Of a stretch of DNA of 64,000 nt, positions 1,428-42,460 are shown piece after piece. The DNA is taken from the IMG/VR virus record IMGVR_UViG_3300014838_000016, positions 1 through 64,000 of that record; one strand, given 5' to 3'. Below the pieces are notes generated by a model. That model searched no databases and had not been told where the DNA came from. It was given only the letters and a program-made list of their open reading frames with translations. Position numbers and translations under genes: made by a program. Each line of letters begins with the position of its first letter. The stretch's first letter is position 1. Source of the stretch: a virus.

Positions 1428-4400
1428 TTGCTGCACATCATCGGGACGCAGAACAATGCGATCAACTCCCGCTACTCGGACCTGATTAAGTTCACTTTCG
1501 ACACGAACACCCAGACCCTCTCAGGACCGCACATCCTGACAACCGCTTCGGCGGTTCGCGATGGGTACGACATGGTGGTGTTGGCTAACGGACACCGTTT
1601 CATTGCTGTGTCGGTTCTAGACGCCGAAGTACCGCCCCTGTTCCAAGCTCCGATCACGTTTGTGAGTATCGCTACCACGGGAACGCCCGCAGAAACCACG
1701 CTGACGATCACAGCAAGCAACACGTTCTCGGAAGGTCAATTGGCTACCCTGACGGGGCTGACCAACGCCACGTTCCTTAACGGTGTGACGGTGCAGGTCT
1801 TGGATGCATCACCGACCCAGTTCACTGCGGCATTCACCACCAATTTCCCCGACTACTCCGCACCCGATACGGGTCTGGCAACTCCGTTCTATTCTGGCGA
1901 AAACCTGCTCGCATTCGAACTGGATACCAGCGATAACTACGTTACGGGCTCGCTCCACATCGTCGCGTCTTCGCCCGACCGCTCTGGCAATACATTCAGT
2001 GCCGTAAGTTTGGTGACCCCCGATGGGCTGGACATCGAACTTTACTACGGAGCGCACCCGAAGGTTTACAACTTCAAAGATCAGTTGTTTACGATCAACC
2101 TCATCAACCGCACTACGACACTCAGTCCTCCCGTCTCGGGTGTTTGGGATGCCGCGCCGACCAATCTCTTTACGTTCACGTCACGCTACGCCGACGATAG
2201 CCTGACCGTCATACCTGATTTATTTGGCAACCGATATCTTAGCTGGTCATTTTGGACACAGAGCAATCACCCCGAAGGGCTCATCGGTAACGTGGTACTT
2301 GGAACCTTGCAAGTGGGGAATCCATGGCTCTTTAGCCCGATTTATGGTACTTCGCTCAACGGTTCAGTCGTTCAAGCAACCCTGTCGGTCACGCAGTTCG
2401 GCTCTGTGAGCTTGGCGTATCTGCTGGAGCCATTCAATTTAGTGACTCCAATCCCCGCGATGGGGACGTTCCCCGCATACCCGCTTTACGTGGCGACCGT
2501 CACCCCGACATTGGGCATCACAAACACCGCAGGGTGGTACAACCAACAGGTCTTCACATGGCTACGGGGAACAAACGTACCTCTCGATGATGCGAGCACG
2601 TGGGCGTTTGTTGGCGAGGCATCCCGAATCATCCCGGTTACCAATGAGGTACAGACGATCCCAGCCTCGGGGGTGGTTCAGGTAGACAATTTCTCCGATA
2701 CCCCGTTTTCCAACTACTGGGAAAATGTGGGGGTTACTTATTCGCAGACTGGTGTGCCGCTGGTTGAAGTTGCGACTGCACCCGCACAGGGGCAGTATCA
2801 AGTGGAGCCCACCAACGGGCTTTATATCTTTAATTTGGCGGATGTCGGAGCAGGCGTACAGATCAGCTACAGCTACGTGGGCATGATCCTTCCCGTGTAC
2901 GTCTCGCTGTTCAATGTTCCACCGATTGTTGGGATGGAACCGCCCTCGTCGCTGTGTGGTCCGCCTCTGATTGTGTATCGTGATACGGGTTCGCCACTGG
3001 GTCAGCCAGTCACGCTCAGTGCGGCGGGAACCGTAGACCCCGATCAAGACGCCATCGAATATTGGTGGTCAGATAACGATACGTCGGGATTTGTGACACT
3101 GACTCCCAGCGGGTTTTGGACGCTTAGTGATACCTCCGTCCTCTCGGTCAGCCCATTGATTGACAGGCCAGCGGTTGCTTTCAACGTTGGAGTCGCGGCG
3201 GTAGACCTTTACCTCGATCTCACCACGCAACGTCATCCACCCCTGAACGTGTCGGCGTACCAAATACTGAACGCTAGCCCTCTGATGGTTGAGTTCACAG
3301 TGAGCAATACCCCCGTTGGCAACCCGCCTACCAACACCCCAACTTTGCCGCTGGCGATAGGCGAAGAAGTCATGACTTGGAACATTATGGCGCTCAGCCC
3401 ACCGTCGATTATTCAGTCGTTGAACGATCAATTATGGTATGTGACGGCATCAACATCCACGACTTTTACGGCAGTGCCGCTTTGTGACATGGGGGGCAGT
3501 CCTCCATCACCCCCGCCGCCATCTCCAGTCACCACGGAGCTAGGCTCAGCGGCAAACTACGCCCTACTCGCTTACAGCGGGATCACGAATGCCGACCCAT
3601 CAACCTCGATTTCTGGGGGTGTTATTGGCTCAGCCCCAATCATGAGCATCACGGGCTTTAATCCCCCTACGGCGACCGTAGACAACGCCGATGCCCCAGC
3701 CGCACGTACTGCGGGTAATGCGGCATTTCTCTACTACAGTGGGTTGACCCCAACTCAGACGGGTCTTGCAGACCTCAGCACGAATGATGGTGGGGGCGGT
3801 GTGGGCGTCTATCACGCGGGGGTTTTCTCAGGCGGTGCCTTGGACATGCCTACCAGTATCACCCTTGACGCTCAAGGCGACCCGAATGCTGTGTTTGTAT
3901 TCATCAGCGCATCCACCACAGTTCTTGAGAGTGGTGCATCGATTATCCTCGCCAATGGTGCCCAAGCTTCGAATGTGGTCTGGGTGGTTGGTAGTTCTTT
4001 CACTTCTATTTGGAATGGCATCTCGTCGAACATGGTCGGTAACATCCTCGCCTATGCCAGTATCACCCTTGGCGGCGGAATTTTGGATGGTAGAGCCCTC
4101 GCTGTAGGCGGTGGTAATGGAGCAGTCACTATCGCGGTCGCCGAGGCGGTCACTGTGCCCGCGAGCGGCCCGCCGCCGAGCCCAGTTATCGGCGTGACGG
4201 GGTATGCGATCCCACAGTTCCAGTTCTCCGTGATTACAGTAGAAGTGCCGTACAACGCACCCCCCGAGATCGTGTTCCCAAGCCCCGTATGGGAGGCTGT
4301 CGGCTCACCGCCAACAAGCTTTATCCTTCTGGAGCCTGTAACGGTTACTCGGAACACTGAAATTACCATTACGCCCGACGCGATCACCAATCCTGCTGTA

Positions 4401-6247: not shown

Positions 6248-7294
6248 ATGGAATTAGCTACGCAATTGACGGAATTGGAATCCGTCCCCGTATCGTCCGA
6301 CAAGACTGACCTGCAAAAGACCCTGAAACTCCTGTCATCGTTCGACCCCATTGGGTCTCCCTATGTTGCCGTCCAATTCGTCGAAGGGAAGCCCGAGTTC
6401 TATCGCTCAAGCGCCAACGGGTTTGCTCACACCAAGAATTTTCAGGTCGAAGAGATTTTCGTGGACCTGCAACACTTCATTGAATATCTGAAGTACCTAC
6501 CAGACAACGTGGAAGTTAGTGTGGCACCGAACGGTGTCCTACGGCTGTATGCCGTCAGGGATAATTTCCCCACCAACATGTATGTCCACACTGTCCTAAA
6601 GGGGCAAGCTGGGCAAATACGGCATATACCCGTAGGGCGGTCGCTCGAACTCAAACCCAACACGTTTTCGGGTTTGGACGTGCGCCACATCACCAATCTT
6701 TCGGGGCATCCCACGGTTATGAACGGAATGGTTATGATTCCCACGAATACGGGAGCCTTAGTTTATAGCGGTGCCGCCGAGTTCCTGCCGCCAACGAGTG
6801 ACTTCAGCCCCAAGTTCTCATTCCTGAAGCTTGTCAGCGGCGGCGTGGTGGTTGATGACCTGTATGTCTCCCAGAACGGCTATTGGCGTGTGGCGGTTGA
6901 AGGTTTGACGGTCTATATGATGGGACAAGGCCCAGATGCCCGTCTATTCCGTCGAATGACGCTTCCGGGCACTGAAGTCTGCCAGTTCACCGCCAGTGCT
7001 CTGCTTTGGGGGTTATCGGCAGCCACAGGTTTGATCGGGGATACGGAATACGTGGGTATGAGTCCGAGAGATGGCATCACGATTCAGGACAAATTCGGCA
7101 ACCCCGCACAGTGGGCTTTGGATGAGGGGCTGGACTGGCCGAAGTTCCGCATAAACGGCGGGCAGGCAAAGCTGATCGTCAACACCCTCAAGCAGGCTCA
7201 GGACGACAAAATCGTGTTTTATGACGTGCCAAACGACACGTCCCCGCTGCTTCGGTTCACCCGTGGCAATTTTGCTGTCAATGTTTCGCTGTAA
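6248..7294 (+). CDS. DNA polymerase sliding-clamp-like protein
   Basis: This 348-residue protein resembles phage sliding clamps (beta/gp45 type), which encircle DNA and tether the polymerase. The evidence is its length, a repeated alpha/beta pattern with alternating hydrophobic strands, and a C-terminus (LLRFTRGNFAVNVSL) like the closing strand of clamp domains. A DnaX-type clamp loader encoded at 18776-20167 makes a phage clamp expected. The ATG at 6248 has a good ribosome binding site; the open frame extends upstream into the giant gene but that part is not coding. It starts a run of replication genes. The similarity is structural rather than motif-based, so a different beta-rich protein is possible. 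Confidence 0.55.
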   Translation: MELATQLTELESVPVSSDKTDLQKTLKLLSSFDPIGSPYVAVQFVEGKPEFYRSSANGFAHTKNFQVEEIFVDLQHFIEYLKYLPDNVEVSVAPNGVLRLYAVRDNFPTNMYVHTVLKGQAGQIRHIPVGRSLELKPNTFSGLDVRHITNLSGHPTVMNGMVMIPTNTGALVYSGAAEFLPPTSDFSPKFSFLKLVSGGVVVDDLYVSQNGYWRVAVEGLTVYMMGQGPDARLFRRMTLPGTEVCQFTASALLWGLSAATGLIGDTEYVGMSPRDGITIQDKFGNPAQWALDEGLDWPKFRINGGQAKLIVNTLKQAQDDKIVFYDVPNDTSPLLRFTRGNFAVNVSL

Positions 7295-7297
7295 TCC

Positions 7298-7305
7298 AGT
7301 ATTAA
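7298..7305 (+). promoter_or_regulatory. phage-type extended -10 promoter (AGTATTAA)
   Basis: AGTATTAA lies directly behind the clamp-like gene. The predicted transcript start is near 7312, followed by GGAGG at 7313-7317 and an ATG at 7323. Confidence 0.6.
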
Positions 7306-7322
7306 GCATCATGGAGGCTCGT

Positions 7323-7712
7323 ATGAGCGTTGGAGATGAGCTTGACGGATACCCAGAAGGCATGGAAGACGTAGATATGGAAGACATCACCTTTGATGAC
7401 GCACCGCCGCAGGACAAGGCGGAAGTCGTCGCTAAGGCAGTAGAGGCGACGAAGACACTGATCGCCGCCAAAGCAGTAAAGGTAACAAAGGCGGCACCAT
7501 CACCTAAACCCAAAAAAACGAGGAAACCAACCGTGGCAAAAGCAGCTACCGCAACCGCAAAGAGCAAGCACCGCGTAAACACCGTTGACAGCAACAAGCT
7601 TGAAGCCTATCTGGACAATCTTGTCAATGTCGAGGGCTACACCTTGATCTCCGTGACAGGTTCATCGAGCATCATGGGCGCATTCAGCGTCGTGTCCGTC
7701 AAAGTCGGCTAA
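7323..7712 (+). CDS. hypothetical protein with Ala/Lys-rich linker, 129 aa
   Basis: The N-terminal 35 residues are very acidic. A low-complexity Ala/Lys/Pro linker follows (about residues 45-90), then a compact C-terminal domain of about 40 residues. The shape suggests a tethered adaptor or DNA-associated protein, but I recognise no family. GGAGG at 7313-7317 fixes the start at the second ATG (7323) rather than 7311. It is followed after 2 bases by the next gene. Confidence 0.7.
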   Translation: MSVGDELDGYPEGMEDVDMEDITFDDAPPQDKAEVVAKAVEATKTLIAAKAVKVTKAAPSPKPKKTRKPTVAKAATATAKSKHRVNTVDSNKLEAYLDNLVNVEGYTLISVTGSSSIMGAFSVVSVKVG

Positions 7713-7714
7713 CC

Positions 7715-7954
7715 ATGACTCCGACACTACCAAAAGCGAATTTCACGCAAAGTGATGAATTCAGCCTGATCTCCCACAAGGAGTTGGCTACGCTTCTGCG
7801 GGAAACGGCGACCATGCTCGAACAGGGCGATCTAGCAGGCCGAGGCGGTGCTGTTATCGCTGTCGGCAAGATCGGCGAACCCGGGTCCATCAGGGTCGAT
7901 TTTGACTTCACTGTAGGTGGAGAAGTTCGCAGCATTGGCCTCGGAAGTAAGTAA
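7715..7954 (+). CDS. hypothetical protein, 79 aa
   Basis: This is a small soluble protein with an amphipathic helix near residues 20-40 (HKELATLLRETATMLEQG) and a beta-rich C-terminal half. It starts 2 bases after the preceding stop and ends 11 bases before the Rad50-like gene, so it is probably co-transcribed with both. It has no recognisable family. Confidence 0.65.
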   Translation: MTPTLPKANFTQSDEFSLISHKELATLLRETATMLEQGDLAGRGGAVIAVGKIGEPGSIRVDFDFTVGGEVRSIGLGSK

Positions 7955-7965
7955 CTCGGAACAAC

Positions 7966-8655
7966 ATGGATGCAGCACTGGTTTCGCGCATTGCTTCCGT
8001 CCGCTCTACTGTTGAACGTCTCGACCAACAGTTGGAGTATGAGGAGTCGTCGATACATCGTCTTACGGAAAGAATAAAAACCCTAGAGTCGGAAAAGGTT
8101 TTGTTGGTAAAAGCTGTCGGACTCATCGACCGCTGCATCCAAGTCATCTCAGCCAACGGCATCGGCAAGATCGAAAGCATCGTGAGCGACGGCCTGCGTC
8201 GTGTCTTTGATGACCCCACCTTGACCCTCGTTGTCGATAAGAAGTCGGGGGCACGAGGCAACACTTACAGCCTTCTGGTCAGTAAGGACGGCGGCGAGCC
8301 CTACGATCCAATGAAATCCTACGGCGGGGGCGTAGCAAATGTTGTGAGTCTTTTGCTACGTTTGATTTTGATAAAACGGTTTCGTCTAGCTAAACTCCTT
8401 GTGCTAGATGAGCAATTCAATAACGTGTCCGTTGATTACCTACCCGCTGTCTCGGCCCTTCTTAAAACACTGACGGATAGGCATGACTACACTATCTTAG
8501 CAGTAACCCACCAGCCCATTCTCGCACTCGAAGCTGACCGCATCTACCAATTACACACAGTTAATGGGTTTCCGACTTTGAGGACTATGGGTAAAGAAGA
8601 AATTTACGGAGCCATGCGTGATGCCTCGAAAACGGAAGAGCCCGATTCGCTTTGA
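7966..8655 (+). CDS. Rad50/SMC-type ATPase C-terminal half (no Walker A)
   Basis: This protein looks like the C-terminal half of a Rad50/SbcC/gp46-type ATPase, which acts in DNA end processing. Residues 1-60 form a coiled coil. An ABC signature-like SYGGGVANV starts at 118, Walker B LLVLDEQ is at 144-150, and a His-switch VTHQ is at 180-183. I see no Walker A P-loop in its 229 residues, so it cannot bind ATP in the usual way alone. It would need a partner lobe from elsewhere in the genome, or it may be regulatory. It lies in the replication run between small unknown genes. Confidence 0.75.
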   Translation: MDAALVSRIASVRSTVERLDQQLEYEESSIHRLTERIKTLESEKVLLVKAVGLIDRCIQVISANGIGKIESIVSDGLRRVFDDPTLTLVVDKKSGARGNTYSLLVSKDGGEPYDPMKSYGGGVANVVSLLLRLILIKRFRLAKLLVLDEQFNNVSVDYLPAVSALLKTLTDRHDYTILAVTHQPILALEADRIYQLHTVNGFPTLRTMGKEEIYGAMRDASKTEEPDSL

Positions 8656-8676
8656 TCCAAAGAATAGATGGGGTAT

Positions 8677-8684
8677 GGTATAAT
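8677..8684 (+). promoter_or_regulatory. extended -10 promoter (GGTATAAT), leaderless type
   Basis: GGTATAAT ends seven bases before the ATG at 8692, so transcription should start at or next to the start codon. No ribosome binding site is present. Confidence 0.7.
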
Positions 8685-8691
8685 CAAATCC

Positions 8692-8901
8692 ATGAATGAA
8701 CCTACCTATTTAGGGACGAAAGTCTACGAAAACGGGCGGAACTTCGCGCATGAAATCGGCGAGATTATTCGATCAGGTAAGGACGGATTTATTACCCGTG
8801 CGGTCGCCAAGGAACGGATCAAGGCCATCCTGATGAAGGACGCTGAGATGTTGGAGCCTGAATCTGAAGAATCCAAATTTCTCGAAAGACTGATGAAATA
8901 A
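8692..8901 (+). CDS. hypothetical protein, 69 aa
   Basis: This is a small charged protein, mostly helical in appearance, with no known family. An in-frame ATG at 8668 lies upstream of the promoter box at 8677-8684 and would not be transcribed from it. The ATG at 8692 is therefore the likely start and gives a leaderless message. Confidence 0.65.
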   Translation: MNEPTYLGTKVYENGRNFAHEIGEIIRSGKDGFITRAVAKERIKAILMKDAEMLEPESEESKFLERLMK

Positions 8902-8919
8902 CGTTGAAGAGCTTCCTCC

Positions 8920-9525
8920 ATGAACGATCCGCTGCTGAAGAAGATCAAGCTCAAGTCGCCTGAGGAAATTATAACTCGCGCCAGAGATATTATTAGCAGA
9001 CACCGCCGTCGCTTCCTCTCGCGGAATCTTCACCCCTGCCCCGGAAATTGCGCTATGGCGGAAATGATGGGCCGTAGGGTCACGGGTTGTTCTGGCTGTG
9101 AATCCATTGACCCAAACAAATGCCTCCGTCCCGACAAATTCAAGCCCGCGTATTCCAAGGAAGAACTTGCGGCTCAGTTTGCCGAAGAGCTTCGAGACCC
9201 GGGAACCCTTCTCAGGGACTATCGAGATGTGGTAGTATTCTTCTGGGTGCTAGGTGCGTTTGACGAGGAAAAACGAGTAGACGAAGAGATCGTTTCGAAA
9301 GTGGAGAAAAAACATGTGGAAGCTGGAAGTTCCGCTGCAAACCCAAGTCGAGATGGGTCAACTGCGATACCATCTCAGGACGTACCGACTGATAGCCATC
9401 CTCCTGATCGGCGGGATAACGACGCTGGCACTGGTGATGCGGACGCAGAACCAAACTATAACAGGGCAGAGAGCAACTATTCGTCAGTTGATGCAAGATT
9501 GTCCAGTCGCACCAAAGTGACATAA
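8920..9525 (+). CDS. Cys-rich hypothetical protein with a dual-coding tail
   Basis: The first 130 residues look like a real folded protein, with a Cys cluster at about residues 45-68 (CPGNCAMAEMMG, CSGCES, NKCL) that could bind zinc or an iron-sulphur cluster. From about residue 132 the frame turns into a hydrophilic low-complexity Ser/Asp/Asn/Pro tail. That tail overlaps another reading frame (9314-9520) which looks more like true coding sequence. The stop TAA overlaps the ATG of the next gene at 9525. The tail may be real dual coding or a run-on after loss of an earlier stop. Confidence 0.6.
   Translation: MNDPLLKKIKLKSPEEIITRARDIISRHRRRFLSRNLHPCPGNCAMAEMMGRRVTGCSGCESIDPNKCLRPDKFKPAYSKEELAAQFAEELRDPGTLLRDYRDVVVFFWVLGAFDEEKRVDEEIVSKVEKKHVEAGSSAANPSRDGSTAIPSQDVPTDSHPPDRRDNDAGTGDADAEPNYNRAESNYSSVDARLSSRTKVT
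9314..9520 (+). CDS. small single-pass membrane protein embedded in the preceding gene
   Basis: This 68-residue protein has one clear membrane segment (about residues 27-43, IAILLIGGITTLALVM) flanked by Arg, with a short hydrophilic C-terminal part ending CPVAPK. It lies wholly inside the end of the previous gene, in another frame. Its third codon positions are rich in G and C, unlike the overlapping frame, which argues it is real. The GGAG at 9302-9305 offers a ribosome binding site. Its shape would fit a spanin-like or other small phage membrane protein, but nothing proves a function. Confidence 0.5.
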   Translation: MWKLEVPLQTQVEMGQLRYHLRTYRLIAILLIGGITTLALVMRTQNQTITGQRATIRQLMQDCPVAPK

Positions 9526-10250
9526 TGGAACCAGTTAACATCCCGCTGCTTATGGAGAAGGTGGACGCCCTCTACGAGGATGCGGTCAAGCGTGGGAAGC
9601 CATTCACCAAACTGAGCGCCACTCGGGACAAGATCATCGCCGAGCGTGGATGGAAGCCCGCCGCCAGTTACATCGACGCCAACTTTGATCGGGTGTTGAC
9701 CGAATTCAAGATCACCTACATTCCCAAGGTTCTATCCCCCGGCCCAATGTTCCTGTTTCCCATCACGGACACAGAGGGTGAGATCAATTACGCCCAGACC
9801 AAGCCACTTCTCGGCAGCCCGTACTACGGCAAGAAATACTACCGATTGGGTATAGAGCCCACAGGCCCACAATGGCTGGGGAACAGTATGCGTGCCATTC
9901 GCACCATCGTTGAGACGGGTGTGGCGGGACTGGTGGAGGGGCCGTTCGACTGGCTGGCGTGCAAGCTTCTCTTCCCCGACTCCCCCGTACTCTGTCCGCT
10001 GACGAAGCGCATCGGGAAAGATCACCAAGCCTATCTGCGATTGCTCGGGATTCACACCCTGTATTTCATGTACGACAATGAAGCGGATTTGAAAGGGTAC
10101 TCGGCTGCCCGCAGTCAGTCACGGGATTTTCAAGCCATCCCCATGATGAAGTGTCACAACCTGCCGTGTCCCGCACCCGACCCCAGCGAGGCTCTCAAGA
10201 ACTACGACACAGCGCAGCAGCTTAAAACGTTGCTAAAAGGCTTGCGTTAA
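9525..10250 (+). CDS. TOPRIM-domain DNA primase-like protein
   Basis: This 241-residue protein carries a TOPRIM fold like the catalytic centre of DnaG-type primases. The first acidic motif is LVEGPFD at 136-142 (Glu138, Asp142). The second is MYDNEADLKG at 182-191, in place of the usual DxD. No zinc-binding N-terminal domain and no helicase domain are visible, so it is shorter than classical primases. Its start overlaps the previous stop by one base (TAATG). It groups with the clamp-like, clamp-loader and Rad50-like genes. It could instead be a topoisomerase-like or OLD-type accessory TOPRIM protein. Confidence 0.7.
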   Translation: MEPVNIPLLMEKVDALYEDAVKRGKPFTKLSATRDKIIAERGWKPAASYIDANFDRVLTEFKITYIPKVLSPGPMFLFPITDTEGEINYAQTKPLLGSPYYGKKYYRLGIEPTGPQWLGNSMRAIRTIVETGVAGLVEGPFDWLACKLLFPDSPVLCPLTKRIGKDHQAYLRLLGIHTLYFMYDNEADLKGYSAARSQSRDFQAIPMMKCHNLPCPAPDPSEALKNYDTAQQLKTLLKGLR

Positions 10251-10260
10251 CCCCGTGTTT

Positions 10261-10268
10261 GGTATTAG
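10261..10268 (+). promoter_or_regulatory. extended -10 promoter (GGTATTAG), leaderless type
   Basis: GGTATTAG ends six bases before the ATG at 10275. No ribosome binding site lies between them. Confidence 0.7.
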
Positions 10269-10274
10269 GATAGT

Positions 10275-10646
10275 ATGAGCGACCTAAGTAAAACAGACCT
10301 GATCGAGGTTCTTCAGGTCAATGCGGAAGTTCGAAACGATCCTAACAGGCCAACTTTCGCCCGCGAGATTCAAGCTTTCGACGAAATTGATTGTGAGATA
10401 GCCCTCTACGAAGCCGACCATCTGGTTGATGAGTACATGGAGCAATACCGCGCTCGCTTCTCGAATCCAGAGATGTTCGAGGAATTCGTCAAGGTCTACC
10501 GTGGAAAATTCCGTGAAGATATCAAGGAGTTTATTTCCACGGCACGGGAGGCTTTGAAAGCTGCTGGTCACGGTCCCAAAGACACCACGTCGTGGGGTTG
10601 GGGCGATGACGGATATCACAAAGAGGATGACGATGGCGGCGTCTAA
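10275..10646 (+). CDS. hypothetical protein, 123 aa
   Basis: This is an acidic helical protein with a Gly/Trp/Asp-rich C-terminal tail (WGWGDDGYHKEDDDGG). It is read from its own leaderless-type promoter and overlaps the next gene by 14 bases. I recognise no family. Confidence 0.65.
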   Translation: MSDLSKTDLIEVLQVNAEVRNDPNRPTFAREIQAFDEIDCEIALYEADHLVDEYMEQYRARFSNPEMFEEFVKVYRGKFREDIKEFISTAREALKAAGHGPKDTTSWGWGDDGYHKEDDDGGV

Positions 10647-10836
10647 CGAAGCACTGGCGAAAGTACACATGGCAATCATTTACATGGCGCAAGAAAGAGC
10701 GTTCGGACTGATTATCGATTTCCCTCCTGAAGTCAAGCATCTGGCGGACAAAAGGCTCGGTGATTTAACCGAGGAAGAGTGCGGACAATTGGCGAAAGCA
10801 GGCATGGAAGCCCACGCCAAAGCACTAGGGTTGTAG
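10633..10836 (+). CDS. hypothetical protein, 67 aa
   Basis: This is a small helical protein of unknown function. AAGAGG at 10621-10626 sits six bases before the ATG at 10633, so I prefer that start over the in-frame ATGs at 10606 and 10627. It ends 2 bases before the first GIY-YIG endonuclease gene. Confidence 0.6.
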   Translation: MAASNEALAKVHMAIIYMAQERAFGLIIDFPPEVKHLADKRLGDLTEEECGQLAKAGMEAHAKALGL

Positions 10837-10838
10837 AT

Positions 10839-11540
10839 ATGGGGCTGGTTTATCTCATCCGCAACAAAGTCACGGGCAAAGTCTATGTAGGCAAGACCAC
10901 TCGCACCGTGCTTCGACGTTGGACAACCCATATTTTCGCCGCCAAACGTGGAGAGCGTTCGAGATTCTATAACGCAATCCGTAAATACGGCAAAGATGCA
11001 TTTGAAGTAGAGATTTTAGGTAGCGCGTTGGATGGAGCCGCGTTGAATCGTTTGGAGATGGACTATATAGTGCTTTATGGTTCACGCAATCCTCAATGGG
11101 GGTACAACATAACGGTCGGCGGGGATGGGGCAGGTTCGGGACCTGACAACCCGAATTACGGAAAACCCGGTTCTAATCTGGGACGGAAATTTCCACCTGA
11201 GTTCGGTATAAACGTGAGTTTAGGAAAGAAGGGAATCAAGGTTTCCGAAGAGGCACGTCAGAACATTATCAACGGTTTGATGGGTCGCAGCCCAACGGAG
11301 ACTACGCGCCAGAAATTGGCTCAAGGGAAACTAGGTGCCCTCAATCCTAATTGGAAAAAACCTCATTCTACAGCATGGAAAGAGCGGAACAGCAAAACGT
11401 TTAAGGATCGAATTTGGATAAGTTATTTGGGCACGCCACTTGAAGTCAAACGAGTAAAATCTTCAGAGCTACAGCAGTATCTTGAGAAAGGTTGGGTACA
11501 AGGACGATGGAACCGAAGAGTACGCACATTGTCGAAATAG
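10839..11540 (+). CDS. GIY-YIG homing endonuclease
   Basis: This is a site-specific DNA endonuclease of the free-standing homing type. The N-terminal catalytic domain shows the VYLI...VYVGKT pair at residues 4-21, then a conserved Arg (RRW) and a Glu (RLEMDYI near residue 72). The C-terminal half contains NUMOD-like DNA-binding repeats (GRKFPPEFG, SEEARQNI, TETTRQKLAQGK). The 233-residue protein is complete. It lies directly before an RNA ligase gene and overlaps its start, which suggests the endonuclease moved in at this spot. Confidence 0.9.
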   Translation: MGLVYLIRNKVTGKVYVGKTTRTVLRRWTTHIFAAKRGERSRFYNAIRKYGKDAFEVEILGSALDGAALNRLEMDYIVLYGSRNPQWGYNITVGGDGAGSGPDNPNYGKPGSNLGRKFPPEFGINVSLGKKGIKVSEEARQNIINGLMGRSPTETTRQKLAQGKLGALNPNWKKPHSTAWKERNSKTFKDRIWISYLGTPLEVKRVKSSELQQYLEKGWVQGRWNRRVRTLSK

Positions 11541-12754
11541 TTCCTGTTACGCTAGAACCACATCCCGATCCAGAAACCACATCCCTTAGCATTGTTAAGG
11601 TGTATCAGTACGCGGTGGTCGTTAGGACAGAAGACTGGATTGGTGCCAATAAAGCCGCGTATGTGCCCCCAGACAACATTTTGCCCGACAAGCCCGAGTT
11701 CCGCTACCTGAAAATCACTGGCAACACCCAAAAGGAGTTGAAGGAGATTGACGGCCTTGAACAAAACCTTAGGGATGGCGTGTCTTTCTGCCGTGCAATC
11801 CACGGTCGCGATAATGATGACGATGGCGTCTGCCGCTGCAATGAACGGTATGCGGACGAACTCATCTTACGTCGTGCGGCTCTTGAAGCCAAGATCGACG
11901 CCAACACCAAGTACCTGCGTGTCGCCGTGAAGAAGCTGCGCGGCGTAATATCCATGGGAATGCTACTTCCCTGCCCAGAAGGTGCGGAGATCGGCGACGA
12001 CGTGGCTGAGCTTCTCGGCATCACGCACTACGAGCCCCCGACAATGGATGAGATCGAGGGCGGGCGTAAGCACGCGGGCGACGACGTGGCTTCCCCGCCA
12101 GCGGGCGTGTACGCCCCAATATACGACGTGGAGAGCGTGTACAAGTACGCCGACCTGTTTGAGCCGGGCGAATTGGTCTACGTTTCTGAGAAGCTTGACG
12201 GACAGAACGCCCGATTCGTGGCATCGTCGGGTAACAACGAGAGCTACGTCGAGCGTAGCGAGAGCGGACGTGTGCAAACGTGCACCAACGTGGATATGCA
12301 CGCTGGGTCCCGCAAGGAATGGAAGAAAAAAGGCGGCTCCAACTGGTGGAGGGTGCAAGATCAGAACCCTTGGATTCCAAAATGGTGCCACGAAAATCAG
12401 GAGCAAGTCCTGTACGGGGAGAACTTCGGCTGGGTGAGCGAACTCAAGTACGGGGCAAAGCAAGGTCAACTGTGGTTCCGTTCCTTCGACATCTTGATCG
12501 GTAGCGAGTGGATGGACGCCGAGCCGTTCAGGGCAGCTTTCTACCCTGACCAACGTGTGCCCGATTTCGGGATCATGCCGTTTGACTTCGAGAAGCTTCA
12601 GAAGCTCGCCGATGGACCGTCTCTCATTCTGGGAGCGAACCACATGCGTGAGGGGATTGTAATCAAGCCCCTCAAGGAACGCCGTCACTACAAACTGGGG
12701 CGTGTCATGGTCAAAATGGTGAGTAATAGTTACTTGGAGAAGAAGGCAAGGTAA
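11507..12754 (+). CDS. RNA ligase, DRB0094 (DraRnl/Rnl5) family
   Basis: This 415-residue enzyme would seal RNA ends with ATP. It has the arrangement of the Deinococcus DraRnl family: an N-terminal OB-like domain (about 1-170), here with a charged helical insertion around 73-135, then the nucleotidyltransferase domain. The nucleophile motif is SEKLDGQNARF, with Lys229. Motif IV is REGIVIKP and motif V is VMVKMVS near the C-terminus. The start is ambiguous: ATG 11507, or an in-frame TTG at 11492 with GAGAAAGG close ahead. It overlaps the preceding GIY-YIG gene by 34 bases. With the kinase/phosphatase and Rnl1-type ligase further on, it suggests RNA repair. Confidence 0.88.
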   Translation: MEPKSTHIVEIVPVTLEPHPDPETTSLSIVKVYQYAVVVRTEDWIGANKAAYVPPDNILPDKPEFRYLKITGNTQKELKEIDGLEQNLRDGVSFCRAIHGRDNDDDGVCRCNERYADELILRRAALEAKIDANTKYLRVAVKKLRGVISMGMLLPCPEGAEIGDDVAELLGITHYEPPTMDEIEGGRKHAGDDVASPPAGVYAPIYDVESVYKYADLFEPGELVYVSEKLDGQNARFVASSGNNESYVERSESGRVQTCTNVDMHAGSRKEWKKKGGSNWWRVQDQNPWIPKWCHENQEQVLYGENFGWVSELKYGAKQGQLWFRSFDILIGSEWMDAEPFRAAFYPDQRVPDFGIMPFDFEKLQKLADGPSLILGANHMREGIVIKPLKERRHYKLGRVMVKMVSNSYLEKKAR

Positions 12755-13017
12755 TGAGCATCCCCATTCTCCGGCAAGTCTACGCTTACGGCGGGCTACT
12801 TGTTGTCATCGCTGGCGGCGTAGGCTTTTGCGAGCTTATTAGCTGGCTCTTTCCGCCCCGAAAGGACGGCGGGTCGTGGGGCTTCGGTCATGGGTTTGAC
12901 TGGATACCACGAGGGCCTGACGGGAAGCCCGACTGGAAGAAATTCCACGATGAACTCGACGAAATCGGCAAAACCGTAAAAATCGAAGAGGAAGAGATGA
13001 CAGCTTCCGCAAAATAG
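12754..13017 (+). CDS. small membrane protein, 87 aa
   Basis: One N-terminal membrane helix (about residues 12-33, with LLVVIAGGVGFCELI) is followed by a Gly/Trp/Pro segment and a charged cytoplasmic-type tail. It is translationally coupled to the RNA ligase through a TAATG overlap. The function is unknown. Confidence 0.7.
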   Translation: MSIPILRQVYAYGGLLVVIAGGVGFCELISWLFPPRKDGGSWGFGHGFDWIPRGPDGKPDWKKFHDELDEIGKTVKIEEEEMTASAK

Positions 13018-13025
13018 GGTATTAG
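13018..13025 (+). promoter_or_regulatory. extended -10 promoter (GGTATTAG), leaderless type
   Basis: GGTATTAG overlaps the end of the previous gene's stop region and ends five bases before the ATG at 13031. Confidence 0.7.
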
Positions 13026-13030
13026 GCATT

Positions 13031-13279
13031 ATGAGCCGAGGATGTCCAATCGACGACGAAACGCAGTACAGCCGCCACAGCAATTACCCCCCAGCTTTGA
13101 AGGTGGAGATGTCACACGGGCAGTTGCGGGAGTTAGGCAAGTCTGTCCGCAAGGAAGAGTTCACCACCGCTCAAGTGCAGGCATTTCTCGCCCTGTATCA
13201 ACGCGAACTGGACGAGTTGTTAGGTCAGACAGTTCGCGAATTCATCATCAAGAAGATAGGAAAACAGTATGGCAACTGA
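13031..13279 (+). CDS. hypothetical protein, 82 aa
   Basis: This is a soluble helical protein with a charged C-terminal helix (VREFIIKKIGKQYGN). It is read from a leaderless-type promoter and overlaps the next gene by 11 bases. I recognise no family. Confidence 0.65.
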   Translation: MSRGCPIDDETQYSRHSNYPPALKVEMSHGQLRELGKSVRKEEFTTAQVQAFLALYQRELDELLGQTVREFIIKKIGKQYGN

Positions 13280-13592
13280 ACCACGCGACGTAGAGACCTG
13301 CGTAACAACCCGCGTTGAAGTCTATAAAGCTATCGACTCGGAGCGCGATTTCCAAGATAATTTCGTTATGCCAGAGCGTCGTTACTATCGCACTCACACG
13401 CTGGGTGAATTTGTCCTGATGCTCAATCAGTACGCGGCCCAAGCGCAGGACAAGTGGACGCACCACACCGACGCGGCCAGTCCTGACGAGTTCCCCATTT
13501 CACTGCACGAGGTCCGTAAGATTGCGGCGTTAGCCGTTCGCTGTATGGAACAGCATGGAGCACCGCACAGAGTTGTAGCCGCTGGCAAGTAG
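13269..13592 (+). CDS. hypothetical protein with a MazG/DUF550-like helical pattern
   Basis: This 107-residue protein has the pattern KAIDSERDFQDNF, then HTLGEFVLMLNQYA and LHEVRKIAALAVRCMEQHG. A similar pattern is seen in small all-helical phage proteins related to nucleotide pyrophosphohydrolases. The EXXE metal-binding pairs of true MazG enzymes are not obvious, so catalytic activity is doubtful. AGGAAAAC ahead of the ATG is a fair ribosome binding site. Confidence 0.6.
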   Translation: MATEPRDVETCVTTRVEVYKAIDSERDFQDNFVMPERRYYRTHTLGEFVLMLNQYAAQAQDKWTHHTDAASPDEFPISLHEVRKIAALAVRCMEQHGAPHRVVAAGK

Positions 13593-13593
13593 T

Positions 13594-13601
13594 GGTAGAA
13601 T
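13594..13601 (+). promoter_or_regulatory. extended -10 promoter (GGTAGAAT), leaderless type
   Basis: GGTAGAAT ends eight bases before the ATG at 13610, so the transcript should begin at or just before the start codon. Confidence 0.6.
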
Positions 13602-13609
13602 GAGGTATT

Positions 13610-13912
13610 ATGCGAATTGAAGGTTCTCCAAAATCCAAAGCCATGAAGCGCGGCACCGATAAACAGGTCGCCGCCGCGCTTGGTGTTGATCTCTGCCTAA
13701 CTAAGATGGTCGGTAAGCTGGAACTCAATGCCACACAATCAACGGATTTCGCTCTCCTCAGAGAACTCTTCTGGGTGTTTATGGGCGGTGGTGCTGGTGG
13801 TGGGGGAAGCATCGACATCACCAATGCCAAGGGTGAGAAATTCACCTACACGAGTCCGAACAAAGAAGAACTCAAGAAACTCAAATCCAAGAAATCAGTA
13901 GGGGTGAACTAA
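13610..13912 (+). CDS. hypothetical protein with Gly-rich linker, 100 aa
   Basis: A basic N-terminal part is joined through a poly-Gly stretch (GGGAGGGG, about residues 59-66) to a lysine-rich C-terminus. The Gly linker suggests two short functional parts. The stop overlaps the ATG of the next gene (TAATG). Confidence 0.65.
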   Translation: MRIEGSPKSKAMKRGTDKQVAAALGVDLCLTKMVGKLELNATQSTDFALLRELFWVFMGGGAGGGGSIDITNAKGEKFTYTSPNKEELKKLKSKKSVGVN

Positions 13913-14235
13913 TGGGACTCCAGCAGATCGCCAATCAATACGACAATAAAGCCAACCATCTCGCTCTCCGATACGGGGGCGAGTTGAATAGAGTGGTTGG
14001 TCACACGCGGAAAGACGGGAAACCTGTCTCAGTGACTCTGGCCGATGTTATTCAGAACTACCGCACCAATGCGGACAGGGTGCGGGCTTTGATCCTCCCC
14101 GAGGATGAAGTTACCGCCGAGACGCAGTGGCAGCTTGAGGGCGAAGAAGCGATGGCTCTCGCATCGGGCAAAAAGGTAACCGCAAAAGACAAAGTTGCCA
14201 ACCCCAAGGAACTAATCGAGAAGGCGAATAAATGA
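13912..14235 (+). CDS. hypothetical protein, 107 aa
   Basis: This is a soluble protein of unknown function that starts on the stop of the previous gene. It is followed by the second GIY-YIG endonuclease after 4 bases, so it borders a homing insertion. Confidence 0.65.
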   Translation: MGLQQIANQYDNKANHLALRYGGELNRVVGHTRKDGKPVSVTLADVIQNYRTNADRVRALILPEDEVTAETQWQLEGEEAMALASGKKVTAKDKVANPKELIEKANK

Positions 14236-14239
14236 GAGA

Positions 14240-14869
14240 ATGGGAATTAGTCACTTGGCGATAGTTTATCTCATTGAGAACTCGCTTAATGGCAAGGTTT
14301 ATGTTGGAAAGACGGAGCGAGGACTGCTAGCTAGGTGGAAACAGCACATTAAGGCCGCAGAAAAGGGCAGTTCACTGTTGTTACACCGAGCTATTTGTAA
14401 GCATGGTGTGGAGAATTTTACCGTTAATGCCCTGTGTGAAGTCCCAGTTGTAGGGTTGAATGAAGCCGAACGGATGTATATCACCCAGTACAAATCCTAC
14501 CCACCCAACCGAGGTTTTGGGTATAATATGAGCCCGGGAGGGGATGGTGGGGTAGAGATAGGGAAAATTTCTGGAAGCCGCCCTCGGTCTGATCGTCAGA
14601 AAGAACAGACCCGTAAGTTGAATGAGTTGCAGCGACAGCCGATTTCCGATGAGACACGTCGTTTATTGAGTGAGTGGCAGCGAGGGGATAAGAATCCACG
14701 TTTCGGTAAGAATTATGTTATGCCAAAATCGACAAAACAAAAGATCGCTGAAGCCCAATTACAGGTCTACCGTGACCCACAAATGCGTCTTAAACAATCC
14801 ACAGCACAGAAAAAACGAGTATTGAGTAATGAAGCGTTGCTAAGAATATGCAGGTATTACCAAACCTAA
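14240..14869 (+). CDS. GIY-YIG homing endonuclease with a frameshifted C-terminus
   Basis: The catalytic GIY-YIG domain is intact: AIVYLIENS and VYVGKTERG are followed by LARWKQH and NEAERMYI. NUMOD-type DNA-binding repeats follow (SDETRRLLSEWQRG, PKSTKQKIAEAQL). The frame stops at 14869 with an odd ending (RICRYYQT). In the +1 frame, from about 14844 to the TGA at 14964-14966, the text reads as one more NUMOD repeat (KPKSTKTRQRMSASAK) and ends one base before the next gene's ATG. A single indel near 14841-14853 therefore seems to have cut the last 38 or so residues. The catalytic part may still work. Confidence 0.85.
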   Translation: MGISHLAIVYLIENSLNGKVYVGKTERGLLARWKQHIKAAEKGSSLLLHRAICKHGVENFTVNALCEVPVVGLNEAERMYITQYKSYPPNRGFGYNMSPGGDGGVEIGKISGSRPRSDRQKEQTRKLNELQRQPISDETRRLLSEWQRGDKNPRFGKNYVMPKSTKQKIAEAQLQVYRDPQMRLKQSTAQKKRVLSNEALLRICRYYQT

Positions 14870-16436: not shown

Positions 16437-16441
16437 CGATT

Positions 16442-28912: not shown

Positions 28913-29638
28913 ATGAGACGCGGCCTGATGCTGTTCGCAGTACTGTCGCTGGTGCCATTCGCTGGTGCCGTGCGGGTCGTCGTCCGCCGCCCACCCGTCC
29001 AAGTTGGCTGGCGGCACAAGCGTAAACCAAAACTCCTTCTTTATCGAGCGTTCCCACCCACCCATGAATCCTTAGTGCTTCAGAACGCCGAGGCGAACCG
29101 TCTGGGACTCGAACGATACGCCGACAACAAGGCGATGGATGCGGCCATCGAGCGAGAAGAGTTGGTGCCCCTGCCCCTGAGCGTCAGCTTGGCGGTTGAC
29201 AGGCGGCTGGACCCGAAGCGGCGGTATTGCCGCCCGTGGGTCGCCGCGTTTCTGACCGACCTGAGTGACGCTTTCTACCGAGAATACCACCAGCCCCTTC
29301 TTATAGACTCGGCTGTCCGCACGGTGAAAGTCCAGCGGAGCCTATTGCGGTGGAACAAGAACGCTGCCCCCGCGCATGGAGAACTCGAATCGGTTCACAT
29401 TGCGGGGATTGCCGTGGACATCGCTCGCCGTCCGTTGACCGGCAGCCAGATTCGTTGGTTGGAATGGCGGCTACTTTACTACCATGCATTGGGACTGGTG
29501 ATCGCCGAAGAGGAACTCAAGCAGCCGTGCTTCCACATCGTTGTCAGCGGGGATTACCCAAATGGTTCAATTGGTGTACAATTGATTGAGTCGCCCGTGA
29601 CGGTCGATACGATACCTGAGGAGGAACTGCCGCAGTGA
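28913..29638 (+). CDS. secreted M15-like (DUF5715-type) peptidase, likely endolysin
   Basis: This should be a cell-wall peptidase that cuts peptidoglycan cross-links. An N-terminal signal-type segment (LMLFAVLSLVPFAGA) would export it. The catalytic domain shows the M15/DUF5715 pattern: SVHIAGIAVDI at 160-170 (His162, Asp169) and CFHIVV with His208 as metal or active-site residues. A signal-bearing lysin could work without a classical holin. It is the first gene of a cluster with a tiny lipoprotein next to it and a membrane-anchored protein further on, which fits lysis. Its exact bond specificity is unknown. Confidence 0.78.
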   Translation: MRRGLMLFAVLSLVPFAGAVRVVVRRPPVQVGWRHKRKPKLLLYRAFPPTHESLVLQNAEANRLGLERYADNKAMDAAIEREELVPLPLSVSLAVDRRLDPKRRYCRPWVAAFLTDLSDAFYREYHQPLLIDSAVRTVKVQRSLLRWNKNAAPAHGELESVHIAGIAVDIARRPLTGSQIRWLEWRLLYYHALGLVIAEEELKQPCFHIVVSGDYPNGSIGVQLIESPVTVDTIPEEELPQ

Positions 29639-37942: not shown

Positions 37943-38092
37943 TTACCTCATGCAGTTGCACAATTTTTCCTTGCGCTTGGTGGTCGCTTTACGGGCATCC
38001 GCACACGTGTTACAGTGATAGGTCACACTGCCATCTTGGTTGTAGACACGCCATTGAGCTTGTTGACCGCACGAACATATTACTTTTGCCAT
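37943..38092 (-). CDS. small zinc-ribbon protein, 49 aa
   Basis: The protein starts MAKVICSCGQQAQW and has CNTC and a final CNC, giving a compact zinc ribbon with a Lys/Arg-rich stretch between. It overlaps the glycosyltransferase end by 13 bases. A role in nucleic-acid binding is possible. Confidence 0.55.
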   Translation of the reverse strand: MAKVICSCGQQAQWRVYNQDGSVTYHCNTCADARKATTKRKEKLCNCMR

Positions 38093-38733
38093 AGCTTTTG
38101 AATTGTCTCCCATGATTCGGGTTTGTAGTCCTTGCTCAGGTGCTTCCTGCAAGCATTGGCCGTATGGATCGCCGCTACGACCAAGGCAGGATCGTTCAGA
38201 TCGTACCTCGCTGCAACAGGCGTCTTCTTTTGAAAATTGTAGTCGGCTCCCGAGTTGATGTTGTCGAACTTGTTTTTCTCCCAAGCGGATTTGCGTATCG
38301 CGATAGATGCCATCCATCCGATCCCTTTTGGACTCGTGTATCGGTACGCCAACGCGCTGCCGTGCTGGTAGTAGTAGAGGGTGCTCGTCCCCGAGACGTG
38401 CAGTGCGGGGTTCTCAATGAGCGGTGTGATCTGGCGGGTGATTCGATTCGCTGGGTACCAGTCATCGTCATCCCAAATAATTCCGAATTCCCCGCTCGAT
38501 AGCTCAAAGCACCTATTTATTTTCGCCCCATGATGTTTTTTCGGGCTTTCATGGAAATATTTGACCCTCGGGTCGGCGGGCAGGAGGTCTTGAATTGGTT
38601 CCGCACCGTCATCCAATATGATTAGTTCGAGGTTGGGGTAGTCCTGAGAAAGAAAACACTCTATGGCCCGAGGAAAGAATGCCCTACGGTTGAAGGTTGG
38701 CGTCAGTGCGCTTACGAGGGGAAAATCAGACAT
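38080..38733 (-). CDS. glycosyltransferase family 2
   Basis: GT2 enzymes transfer a sugar from a nucleotide-sugar donor. The N-terminus shows the GT-A fold pattern (VSALTPTFNRR), then LIILDDGAEP. The metal-binding acidic motif WDDDDW lies at about residues 87-92. The 217-residue length fits a minimal soluble enzyme with no membrane anchor. Lying among fibre genes, it may glycosylate virion proteins or modify the host surface; that target is inferred. Confidence 0.88.
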   Translation of the reverse strand: MSDFPLVSALTPTFNRRAFFPRAIECFLSQDYPNLELIILDDGAEPIQDLLPADPRVKYFHESPKKHHGAKINRCFELSSGEFGIIWDDDDWYPANRITRQITPLIENPALHVSGTSTLYYYQHGSALAYRYTSPKGIGWMASIAIRKSAWEKNKFDNINSGADYNFQKKTPVAARYDLNDPALVVAAIHTANACRKHLSKDYKPESWETIQKLWQK

Positions 38734-39565
38734 GGCATAACCTACAATTTGGGTTGATTATCCCACGCCTGACATGCCAACGAATATGACTAGCGGCTCG
38801 TCCGCCTAAGACCGTAATACGAGCTAAGTGTCCATTTTCAATGTTCTTTCGTCCTTGAGCACGTCCTAAAGATTGTATATGCCCATTTTCGACATTCTTA
38901 CAGCCTTGAATACGCCCAAGCTCTTGTATGTGCCCGCTTTCAACATTCTTGCGTCCCTGAATAGGGCCACTAATTCGTCCGCCAATACTGCCGCCGACAT
39001 GACCGAACTTGGACCGTTGTTCTGGTGTAAGCGAAAGGGCGGCTAGTCGGCGTATCCTATCCAAGTGTCCACTTTCCACATTCTTGCGATGTAGAGCTTG
39101 CATGTGCCCGCTTTCAACATTCTTGCGTCCTTGGATGCGCCCGTTTTCAGCGTTCTTGCGCCCTAAGGCTTGTATTTGCCCGCTCTCAGCGTTTTTGCGC
39201 CCTAACGCTCTAGTTTTCTCAACTAATTTCACCCTGCCCCTTTCATAGATTTCGGCGTAGCGAGGCAACTCATCCACGGCTACCTGATAAACACTTTTCC
39301 TGTTCGCCATGAGATAGAACACCTTCTCAAATTCTGAAGCACACATCGCCAACCAGTAGTGAGCCCTGAAATGGTCCGCAGGCGATACCCGCATGATGTT
39401 GCTTGTATCCCTAGTTAATTCAGGGAATTCTTTCCTCGGGAGGATGTGGTGCTTGTGCCCTACGCTTGCTTTCGACAAAGACTCGATGAATGTAAAGTAT
39501 AATGTGAAGTCCACGTCGGGGAAACGGACGGACAAAATTTCACGAAGATGTATGGGAACGGTCAC
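38726..39565 (-). CDS. HNH endonuclease with tandem NUMOD-like repeats
   Basis: The N-terminal part has an HNH core: HKHHILPRKEFPEL, then NIMRVSPADHFRAHYWL. The C-terminal two thirds consist of about nine copies of a 10-14 residue motif around RKNVESGH with IQALG spacers. It ends in a His/Cys segment. Such repeats are taken to read DNA in homing nucleases. The start is a GTG at 39565, right after the upstream stop. It overlaps the glycosyltransferase by 8 bases and is probably mobile. Confidence 0.82.
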   Translation of the reverse strand: MTVPIHLREILSVRFPDVDFTLYFTFIESLSKASVGHKHHILPRKEFPELTRDTSNIMRVSPADHFRAHYWLAMCASEFEKVFYLMANRKSVYQVAVDELPRYAEIYERGRVKLVEKTRALGRKNAESGQIQALGRKNAENGRIQGRKNVESGHMQALHRKNVESGHLDRIRRLAALSLTPEQRSKFGHVGGSIGGRISGPIQGRKNVESGHIQELGRIQGCKNVENGHIQSLGRAQGRKNIENGHLARITVLGGRAASHIRWHVRRGIINPNCRLCHV

Positions 39566-39925: not shown

Positions 39926-42460
39926 TTAGCCGCAGATCGAAGTCTGTTCGCTCCATCTACATTGTGCAACGGCCTTGGCGCATCCCCTGAAGCTCTTGCC
40001 GGCAATCGTGTAAGTCTTGCCGTTCAAGCAGTCCATGAGACCGTCGTAGTTGCGTGGGAAAGCTGCCGCGTAGCCAGCCCAGACGATGGTGCCGCCCGTG
40101 ACGCCAGTTGATGCGGTATCCACATTGACGTTGCCCGGACCAGCCGCGAATGCGGAACCAGTGAGCGTCCCGCCTTCGATAAGCTGGAACAGAACCGTGG
40201 AGCCGTCCGTGAAGACCTGAATTTCGCGGAGTAGCTGTACAAGAGCCGCCGTGCCATTGCCTTGAATCGACCACAGCGGGACGAACGCAGTCGTCATGAC
40301 CTGAGTGTCGAACGCCGCACCGCTGTCGTAGGAGTAGTACTGGATCGAGCAAGCAAACTGCTCGTCCGCAGGGATGGTGACGAGTGCGCCCGATGGTGAG
40401 AGCGACAAGTCCTGATTCGAGCCGAGCGGGAAGGTGTTCGGCCCGCAAATGACCGTTGCCAGTTCGAGCACTGGGGTTGGCATACCACCCGTGATAAAGA
40501 CGTTGAGAGATGTCTCAGCGGGGCTGCCCATGGTCGTGTAGGTGTTGCCGCATACGTTGAGACAGGTGTTGGTAATATCAACGAAGAGCGGGGTGTCAAT
40601 GGTGTTGGTGACAGTGACGGTGCCCGTGACGGTGACCGTACCAGTGACGCTTACGGTGCCGCCTGTGATATCGACATAGATCGGAGTGTCGAAGGTGTTT
40701 GCAACGTTGACGTTAAGGAAAGACTCTGCTGGGCTGCCGAGCGTTGTGAAAGTCGCCCCGCATACGTTGAGGCAAGCGTTGGTAACGTCAACGTAGATCG
40801 GAGTGTCGGGTGTGTTTGAGTTGAGGGTGACATCACCGCCAGTAACGAAAACGTTGAGTGAAGACTCCGCTGGGCTACCTGAAGCTGTGAACGTCGCACC
40901 AGTGAGGCCGACCGTCCAAGTACCCGCCTGATTTACGAACCAATCGCCGCACTGTGTAGCGCATACCGTGCCGCCAACGCTGAAGACGTTGAGTCCTGTT
41001 TCCGCAGGGCTTCCAACAGTCGTCGTGCCGACGCCCGTGATGTTGATCGTGCCGCCCGTAACATCGACATAAATCGGGGTATCGATGGTGTTCGAGACGG
41101 TAATGTCGCCGCCCGTAACAAAGGTGTTGAGGGAGGATACCGCAGGACTACCAACCTCCGAGAAGGTTGCTCCGCACACATTGATGCAAGCGTTGGTGAT
41201 GTTTACATCGACCGTGTTGCCGATGTCAACGGTGCCAGTGACGGTGATGGCTCCACCCGGCCCCGTACCAGTGACGGTTACGACGCCAGTGATGGTATCA
41301 ATCGTGCCGCCCTCAACGAAGACGTTGAGTGAGGATACCGCTGGGCTACCAGCGACCGTGAAGGTTTGTCCGCATACGTCGATGCAGGCATTGGTTATGT
41401 CAACGTAGATCGGGGTTTCTGGCGTGTTCGAGTTGAGGGTAACATCGCCGCCGAGGACGAAAACGTTAAGACCTGCTTCGGCTGGGCTGCCTACGAGAGT
41501 CGTTCCAATAGGAACGCCGCCAATTTCAGTGATGTTGGTGACCCACGGGGATGTGCACTGGGTGACGCAAATCTCGCCGCCAGTTACAAATGTGTTGAGG
41601 CCGCATACCTGAACAGTAGCGCAATCGGGAGTGGTGACGATTTCCGCAGCCGAGATTGTGACCGCACCATTGTTGGCGAGTGCACGACCAGTAAGTGTAC
41701 CGCCGCCGAGAGTGATGCTTGCAACGGCGAGGATGGTGCCTTCAGTGATTGCACCCGGCCCGATGGATGTCCAAGAACTTCCAGCGACCCAAACGATGTT
41801 GCACGCCTGTGCTCCGTTAGCCAAGAGGATCGTGCCAGCAATCTGCTGAGTGATGCCACTGCCAGCGAGGAACACGAACACTGCATCAGGGTTGCCCTGT
41901 GCATCAAGAGTAATCGGTGTGTTGATGGCGAGGGTTGAGCCGCTCGAATAAACGCCCGGGTAGTAAGTCCCAACGGGGGCACCGATGGAGTTCTGCGTGC
42001 CCATGTCCGCCGTGGTGAGTACCGTTCCCGGCCCCAGACCTTGGTAATAAGCGATGGCGTTTGCTACAGCCGTCTGATCTCCAGCCGTGGCGGTGACAAT
42101 CGCCGCAGGAGCGACAACTACGCCCGGTGGGAATCCGATAATTGAATTTGTTGGGTACGAACCGACATTATCGCCCGAGATGACCGAGGAGCCCGAGTTC
42201 GTTACGCCGCTGGAGCCGAGGAGGGCGTAGTTTGCTGCTGAGCCGAGGTGAGAAAGTGTAGGGGAGATTCCACCCGTGCAAGTTGTTCCCACCCCTTGGA
42301 TGGTGACTTCTGGGATGTTGATGACGCCGACATTGATCGAGGCGACAGCGGGGCTGCCCGAGACTGTAATGAGGGGACAACCCGTAGTATCGTCGTAGAT
42401 ACCAAAGACGGAGATTCCCGTGTACAGCCCGCCCGCACAAGATGAACAATTTTCTGGCAT
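39926..42460 (-). CDS. fibre-type virion protein with ice-binding-like DUF3494 domain
   Basis: This 844-residue protein is a repeat fibre with a complete DUF3494 (ice-binding-like) domain at about residues 68-272. That domain opens LGSAANYALL and contains ITLDAQGNPDAVFVFLAG and ILLANGAQACNIVW. After it come many copies of a 45-residue unit with LNVFVTGGD, TPIYVDIT and CLNVCG. A distinct C-terminal domain of about 170 residues follows (from about CGPNTFPLGS) and ends with a Cys-containing tail. AAGGAAATC is the ribosome binding site. The second DUF3494 domain lies in the 1428-6221 protein. Ice, sugar or surface binding would all fit; ice binding is not shown. Confidence 0.85.
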   Translation of the reverse strand: MPENCSSCAGGLYTGISVFGIYDDTTGCPLITVSGSPAVASINVGVINIPEVTIQGVGTTCTGGISPTLSHLGSAANYALLGSSGVTNSGSSVISGDNVGSYPTNSIIGFPPGVVVAPAAIVTATAGDQTAVANAIAYYQGLGPGTVLTTADMGTQNSIGAPVGTYYPGVYSSGSTLAINTPITLDAQGNPDAVFVFLAGSGITQQIAGTILLANGAQACNIVWVAGSSWTSIGPGAITEGTILAVASITLGGGTLTGRALANNGAVTISAAEIVTTPDCATVQVCGLNTFVTGGEICVTQCTSPWVTNITEIGGVPIGTTLVGSPAEAGLNVFVLGGDVTLNSNTPETPIYVDITNACIDVCGQTFTVAGSPAVSSLNVFVEGGTIDTITGVVTVTGTGPGGAITVTGTVDIGNTVDVNITNACINVCGATFSEVGSPAVSSLNTFVTGGDITVSNTIDTPIYVDVTGGTINITGVGTTTVGSPAETGLNVFSVGGTVCATQCGDWFVNQAGTWTVGLTGATFTASGSPAESSLNVFVTGGDVTLNSNTPDTPIYVDVTNACLNVCGATFTTLGSPAESFLNVNVANTFDTPIYVDITGGTVSVTGTVTVTGTVTVTNTIDTPLFVDITNTCLNVCGNTYTTMGSPAETSLNVFITGGMPTPVLELATVICGPNTFPLGSNQDLSLSPSGALVTIPADEQFACSIQYYSYDSGAAFDTQVMTTAFVPLWSIQGNGTAALVQLLREIQVFTDGSTVLFQLIEGGTLTGSAFAAGPGNVNVDTASTGVTGGTIVWAGYAAAFPRNYDGLMDCLNGKTYTIAGKSFRGCAKAVAQCRWSEQTSICG

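Follow-up and report, generated by a model that had tools for sequence, protein, structure and literature searches.

DUF3494 domains in tail-type proteins of a large soil phage: a probable class of exchangeable virion-surface domain

Proteins of the DUF3494 family (PF11999) are known from bacteria, fungi, algae and other organisms, and most of them are exported. The ice-binding domain of the Marinomonas primoryensis adhesin is not known to be a DUF3494 domain. As described (PMC5014055), it resembles the cases reported here in being part of a very long protein, but that protein is bacterial. PF11999 genes have also been found in Arctic vOTUs and interpreted as auxiliary metabolic genes (AMGs) for cryoprotection (PMC11515562). 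They share the Pfam family, the location on viral contigs and a cold environment with the genes described below, but were read as protecting the host, with no virion role proposed, whereas the carriers found here are tail-type proteins. Ig-like domains are known from phage structural proteins of several classes, where they are believed to help adhesion (Fraser et al., 2006, as cited in PMC9022992). They are beta-sandwiches, while DUF3494 is a beta-solenoid of about 200 residues which is also found inserted in a tail sheath; the two are alike in their promiscuity, in their occurrence in several virion protein classes, in gene-to-gene exchange and in the adhesion proposed for them. Searches of the open-licence literature gave no previous description of a phage tail protein with a DUF3494 domain, in agreement with a preliminary description of this DNA which knew of no established role for the domain in tails.

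The DNA analysed here (the window) comprises 64,000 nucleotides of an 87,698-bp linear IMG/VR virus record. A described phage with similar gene order is Tunturi_5 (PP885688), a 309-kb myovirus from Finnish tundra soil with the acidobacterium Tunturiibacter as host (PMC11924767). Counterparts of its gp8, gp9, gp14 and gp22–gp25 are collinear over 1.4–22.7 kb of the window as revealed by tblastn. Judged by these core genes, shared in order, the window phage is a large soil phage and a relative of Tunturi_5-like myoviruses. No counterpart of the Tunturi_5 terminase, head and sheath genes was detected in the window phage fragment. The sheath and the head protein of Tunturi_5 are common to close relatives of the window phage, the major head protein being found at 71–73% identity in the related phages G005, G014, G012, G015, G007, G008 and G009. 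Neither this head protein nor the terminase was found in the available sequence of the other domain carriers, which may represent different lineages or be incomplete. Tunturi_5 is like the window phage in core gene order and in the gp8 counterpart but, unlike it, showed no PF11999 match in its whole genome.

A PF11999 profile search of the record gave exactly two matches, both inside the window (Table 1). Both lie far above the curated Pfam cut-off of 28.7 bits and cover the profile almost fully, and neither domain contains a stop codon. The same profile had no match in 14 control genomes. AlphaFold models of the two domains (pLDDT 91.0 for domain 1 and 91.7 for domain 2) show solenoid coils with a helix between them. 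The significant PDB fold matches number 31 for each domain and consist entirely of ice-binding or antifreeze proteins, with 6eio and 7bwx at the top; sequence comparison of the two domains with 6eio gave E-values of 6.8e-25 and 9.3e-16. The known proteins 6eio (EfcIBP), 7bwx (AnpIBP), 5uyt and 4nu2 (FfIBP) are thus of the same family by profile, sequence and predicted fold. The predicted fold is the DUF3494 beta-solenoid, not an Ig-like fold (Big, I-set, FN3). The preliminary description had named two full DUF3494 domains and proposed a profile check; profile scores, models and fold matches all confirm them, and their coordinates had been given correctly to within a few tens of bases.

Table 1. 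Positions in the window of the DUF3494 domains, their carriers and neighbouring phage genes.
Feature	Position	Strand	Remarks
Upstream in-frame part of carrier 1	about 1149-1412	+	ends at TAA 1410-1412; Tyr codon there in the G001 orthologue
Carrier 1, 1597 aa	1428-6221	+	counterpart of Tunturi_5 gp8 'minor tail protein'
Exchanged DNA interval	3528-4147	+	blastn: 76% similarity to unrelated G005 gene, confined to this interval
DUF3494 (PF11999) domain 1	3567-4136	+	91.5 bits, E 2.5e-27, profile 2-203/208; inside carrier 1
Counterparts of Tunturi_5 gp9, gp14, gp22, gp23, gp24, gp25	6302-22697	+	tblastn; order kept
Repeat protein, 1220 aa	33052-36714	-	same cluster as carrier 2; conserved in G001
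Carrier 2, 844 aa	39926-42460	-	layout: short N-terminal part, DUF3494, fibre-type repeats, C-terminal domain
C-terminal domain of carrier 2	about 39929-40483	-	
Fibre-type repeats of carrier 2	about 40481-41638	-	
DUF3494 (PF11999) domain 2	41639-42220	-	120.3 bits, E 3.8e-36, profile 2-207/208; inside carrier 2
266-aa protein	42565-43365	-	PHROG 'virion structural protein' phrog_1645, E 4.3e-8
Tail fibre, 1523 aa, cluster head	44614-49185	-	PHROG tail fibre families, best E 4.7e-25

The plus-strand carrier 1 and Tunturi_5 gp8 are 29–43% identical in pieces along their length; gp8 has 929 residues and lacks DUF3494. An intact orthologue of 1712 residues is present in the related phage G001. 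In the window, an in-frame TAA removes about 87 N-terminal codons. Comparison with G001 shows that the reading frame is conserved on either side of this TAA, which could stem from a sequencing error as well as from a genuine nonsense change. The Ig/FN3-like flanks ascribed to this protein are weak in the window copy, where the regions after domain 1 reach 21.4 bits for a PKD-like domain and 20.9 bits for fn3, both under the cut-off; in the G001 orthologue, fn3 is above it with 31.2 bits.

Carrier 2 belongs to a minus-strand cluster which also contains the 1523-aa tail fibre and repeat proteins and is kept in G001. The short fibre repeats said to flank domain 2 are indeed present and come after the domain. 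The C-terminal domain of carrier 2 is distantly related to the adjoining 266-aa protein, as is visible via the G001 copies: the 266-aa protein has this domain in common with the carrier 2 orthologue of G001 (tblastn E 2e-6). From its position in the cluster, we infer that carrier 2 is a fibre. Both carriers are therefore of tail type as first supposed, one corresponding to a minor tail protein, the other lying in a fibre cluster. The cluster also contains a family 2 glycosyltransferase (38080–38733, minus strand; PF00535, 73.6 bits). It is adjoined by a 279-aa protein (38726–39565, minus strand) with many ‘RKNxESGHxQ’-type repeats and no Pfam match.

To describe the spread of the domain, viral contigs were scanned and domains counted on full records. 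PF11999 was found in 48 further viral records with one to six domains each. The non-identical set, including those of the window, comprises 57 carriers with 61 domains. Masking of the domains leaves 21 groups of carriers, some of which may be linked through short shared fibre repeats. The two carriers had been called unrelated, which is correct and understates the case, as the relatives show about 20 unrelated carrier families with a tail sheath among them. Other carriers in relatives are a DUF2793 fibre, a He_PIG Ig-rich protein of about 2080 residues and a fibre with the tailspike-like motif GAVGNGIHDDT. For most carriers, PHROG scans gave no named function. A group of phage proteins of roughly 400 residues (L131, L116, L118, L122, L125, L134, L135, L143), each with a central DUF3494, begins near ‘TTGLGVAxxVxLTGTGV’; two of these were scanned and had no PHROG match.

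The clearest case concerns a relative and not the window phage: by alignment, DUF3494 is cleanly inserted into the tail sheath of G014. This sheath, of 1447 residues, is the product of the first G014 open frame and matches the sheaths of many phages. It aligns with the Tunturi_5 sheath at 46.8% over 1–265 and at 42.9% over 508–1442, and DUF3494 fills the gap. The tail sheath of G005 has no DUF3494.

A tblastn search of 50,697 phage records with the two window domains, another phage domain and 6eio gave no match, and therefore no isolate among them has a close copy of the domain. No PF11999 match was obtained in Synechococcus phage S-SKS1, which one paper names as the source of a viral homologue. 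Among predicted viral structures (BFVD), the fold was matched only by three DUF3494 proteins, A0A3G5A745, A0A3G5AEI1 and A0A3G5ACG7 of the giant virus Hyperionvirus. A genome-collection scan for cellular copies found only 13 loci, none of them from Acidobacteriota. Identity to these is at most 36% where the match spans nearly the whole domain, and higher over short segments.

Several comparisons bear on the movement of the domain between genes. Between carrier 1 and its G001 orthologue, flank/domain/flank identities are 79/58/80%, and for the Ig-rich protein of G011 and G008 they are 77/42/70%. Window domain 1 is 85% identical to the domains of two unrelated G005 proteins. In nucleotide comparison, carrier 1 resembles an unrelated G005 gene only over an interval around the domain (Table 1), and the G001 orthologue matches carrier 1 on both sides but not within about 3590–3941. 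In a tree of 72 domain rows, well-supported branches split the carrier families, F1 for example requiring seven changes and F10 two, and those of three further families cluster with domain 1 at a support of 97/92. The domains move between genes, and we infer recombination through the conserved domain ends as the route. With about 20 carrier groups, an insertion into a sheath, and movement seen both in the tree and in the limits of DNA similarity, the domain behaves as a promiscuous one. In IMGVR_UViG_3300017448_000004, L125 (7773–8978) and L130 (4104–9065) are unrelated proteins whose DUF3494 domains are close in the tree, which suggests exchange inside one genome.

We consider it probable that the DUF3494 solenoid is a promiscuous, exchangeable virion-surface domain which is used like Ig-like domains and acts as an accessory adhesin. 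The domain would be translated as part of tail proteins (the minor tail protein, fibres and, in a relative, the tail sheath), would fold independently and would face outward on the particle, presumably also on that of the window phage. Copies would pass among unrelated virion genes through recombination at their conserved ends. The most likely work of the domain would be accessory adhesion of the particle, with low specificity, to a repetitive surface. What would be new is the DUF3494 fold in such a role; the domain family, and the same role for Ig-like domains, were known before.

The surface concerned may be sought on the outward face of the solenoid, which is laid out as the putative ice-binding face is in 7bwx and 6eio. 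In domain 2, its residues are SGTS/STAN/SGTQ/SSTG/ASTG/GATS, uncharged and 92% A/G/S/T. In domain 1, they are SGTA/-ADP/STVE/SSTG/ASTG/GATA, 83% A/G/S/T, and include Asp, Glu and Pro. The proven binders 6eio and 7bwx have 87% and 70%, respectively. The equivalents of S153 and T156 of AnpIBP are Ser and Thr in both window domains, and four Thr positions of the face are kept in 47–51 of 52 phage domains. A control, however, gave a similar composition for polar strand positions on other faces (23 of 29) and for the putative face (21 of 24). The putative face seemed better conserved than the remainder in a first comparison (p 0.006), but significance was lost under a stricter control of variability at other strand positions (p 0.12), and conservation is therefore not taken as proof of function. 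The flat Thr-rich face anticipated in the preliminary description is thus present as a flat Ser/Thr/Ala/Gly face, but is not clearly distinct from other faces in composition and conservation. Because strand positions on other faces look alike in both respects, ice binding by the window domains is only plausible.

Our leading, though tentative, candidate for the putative ligand is ice or the boundary between ice and water in freezing soil. The main alternative, a host polysaccharide at the cell surface or outside the cell, is also a real possibility, and a spacer without ligand is an improbable third option. It is conceivable, at a level short of an even chance, that in one lineage of soil phages the tails are covered with ice-binding domains. 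These would let the particles attach to ice surfaces and liquid veins, or persist there, in places in which the hosts also gather. A literature search for the site temperatures of the source metagenomes gave nothing usable.

A serious competitor, though we would not wager on it, is an adhesin for the host surface or matrix only, whose face would recognise polysaccharide or protein of the host; ice would play no part, and the exchange of variants would follow receptor changes. Placement of the domain in fibres, a tail sheath and a tailspike-like fibre fits such an adhesin, as do the exchange of domain variants between phages and the way in which phage Ig-like domains are thought to work. The constancy of the four Thr positions does not: a face that is not hypervariable makes a fast-changing host receptor a slightly less likely target. 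That the domain occurs in a sheath, and that one phage can have it in many of its proteins, also fits a general ligand better than a specific one.

Rather unlikely, in our opinion, is a neutral or structural passenger, that is, a stable beta-solenoid spreading by recombination among virion genes as a ligand-free spacer or stabiliser. Its promiscuity, and its presence or absence in otherwise close relatives, are what a passenger would show, and tail tube proteins can often do without their Ig-like domains (PMC9022992). Yet a plain spacer has no need of a face like that of proven ice binders, although fold constraints may account for part of this likeness, and the fold has been kept over 61 copies.

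Secretion of DUF3494 proteins by the infected host as a protection against ice, the interpretation given to the Arctic vOTU genes (PMC11515562), makes a prediction about the N-terminus. The highest hydrophobicity of any 10 residues within the first 40 was used as a signal test, a heuristic and not a trained signal-peptide predictor. The maximum over the 57 phage carriers was 2.48, while most of the sampled cellular carriers exceeded 2.5. By this test, none of the 57 has a signal-peptide-like N-terminus, whereas most sampled cellular carriers look exported. A secreted cryoprotection AMG is therefore very unlikely. The N-terminal test together with the insertion into a sheath, and the embedding of the domains in tail-type proteins, makes a role on the virion far more likely than secreted host protection. 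An artefact, through chimeric assembly or fusion of host DNA to phage genes, might be suspected from a linear metagenomic contig without end repeats and with an in-frame stop at 1410, but can practically be dismissed, as both genes have orthologues with the domain in a separate metagenome (G001) and the domain is found on many independent contigs which also hold core genes of the same phage lineage.

If DUF3494 is an exchangeable virion-surface domain as preferred here, tailed phages would have a second such class that is promiscuous and widespread, beside the Ig-like folds, and this one has a family-level tie to ice. Ice might then be an environmental anchor for a virus, in parallel to the adherence to mucus by Ig-like domains. 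Some viral PF11999 genes now called host cryoprotection genes are worth re-examining as virion parts. The domains also allow a direct test of ice binding by phages of frozen soil, which bears on virus survival and dispersal in thawing tundra.

Two minor observations concern other genes of the window. A GIY-YIG homing endonuclease (10779–11540, plus strand) is located directly 5' of an RNA ligase gene (11492–12754). A DUF5715 protein (28913–29638, plus strand) with a weak endolysin match is a candidate lysis gene.
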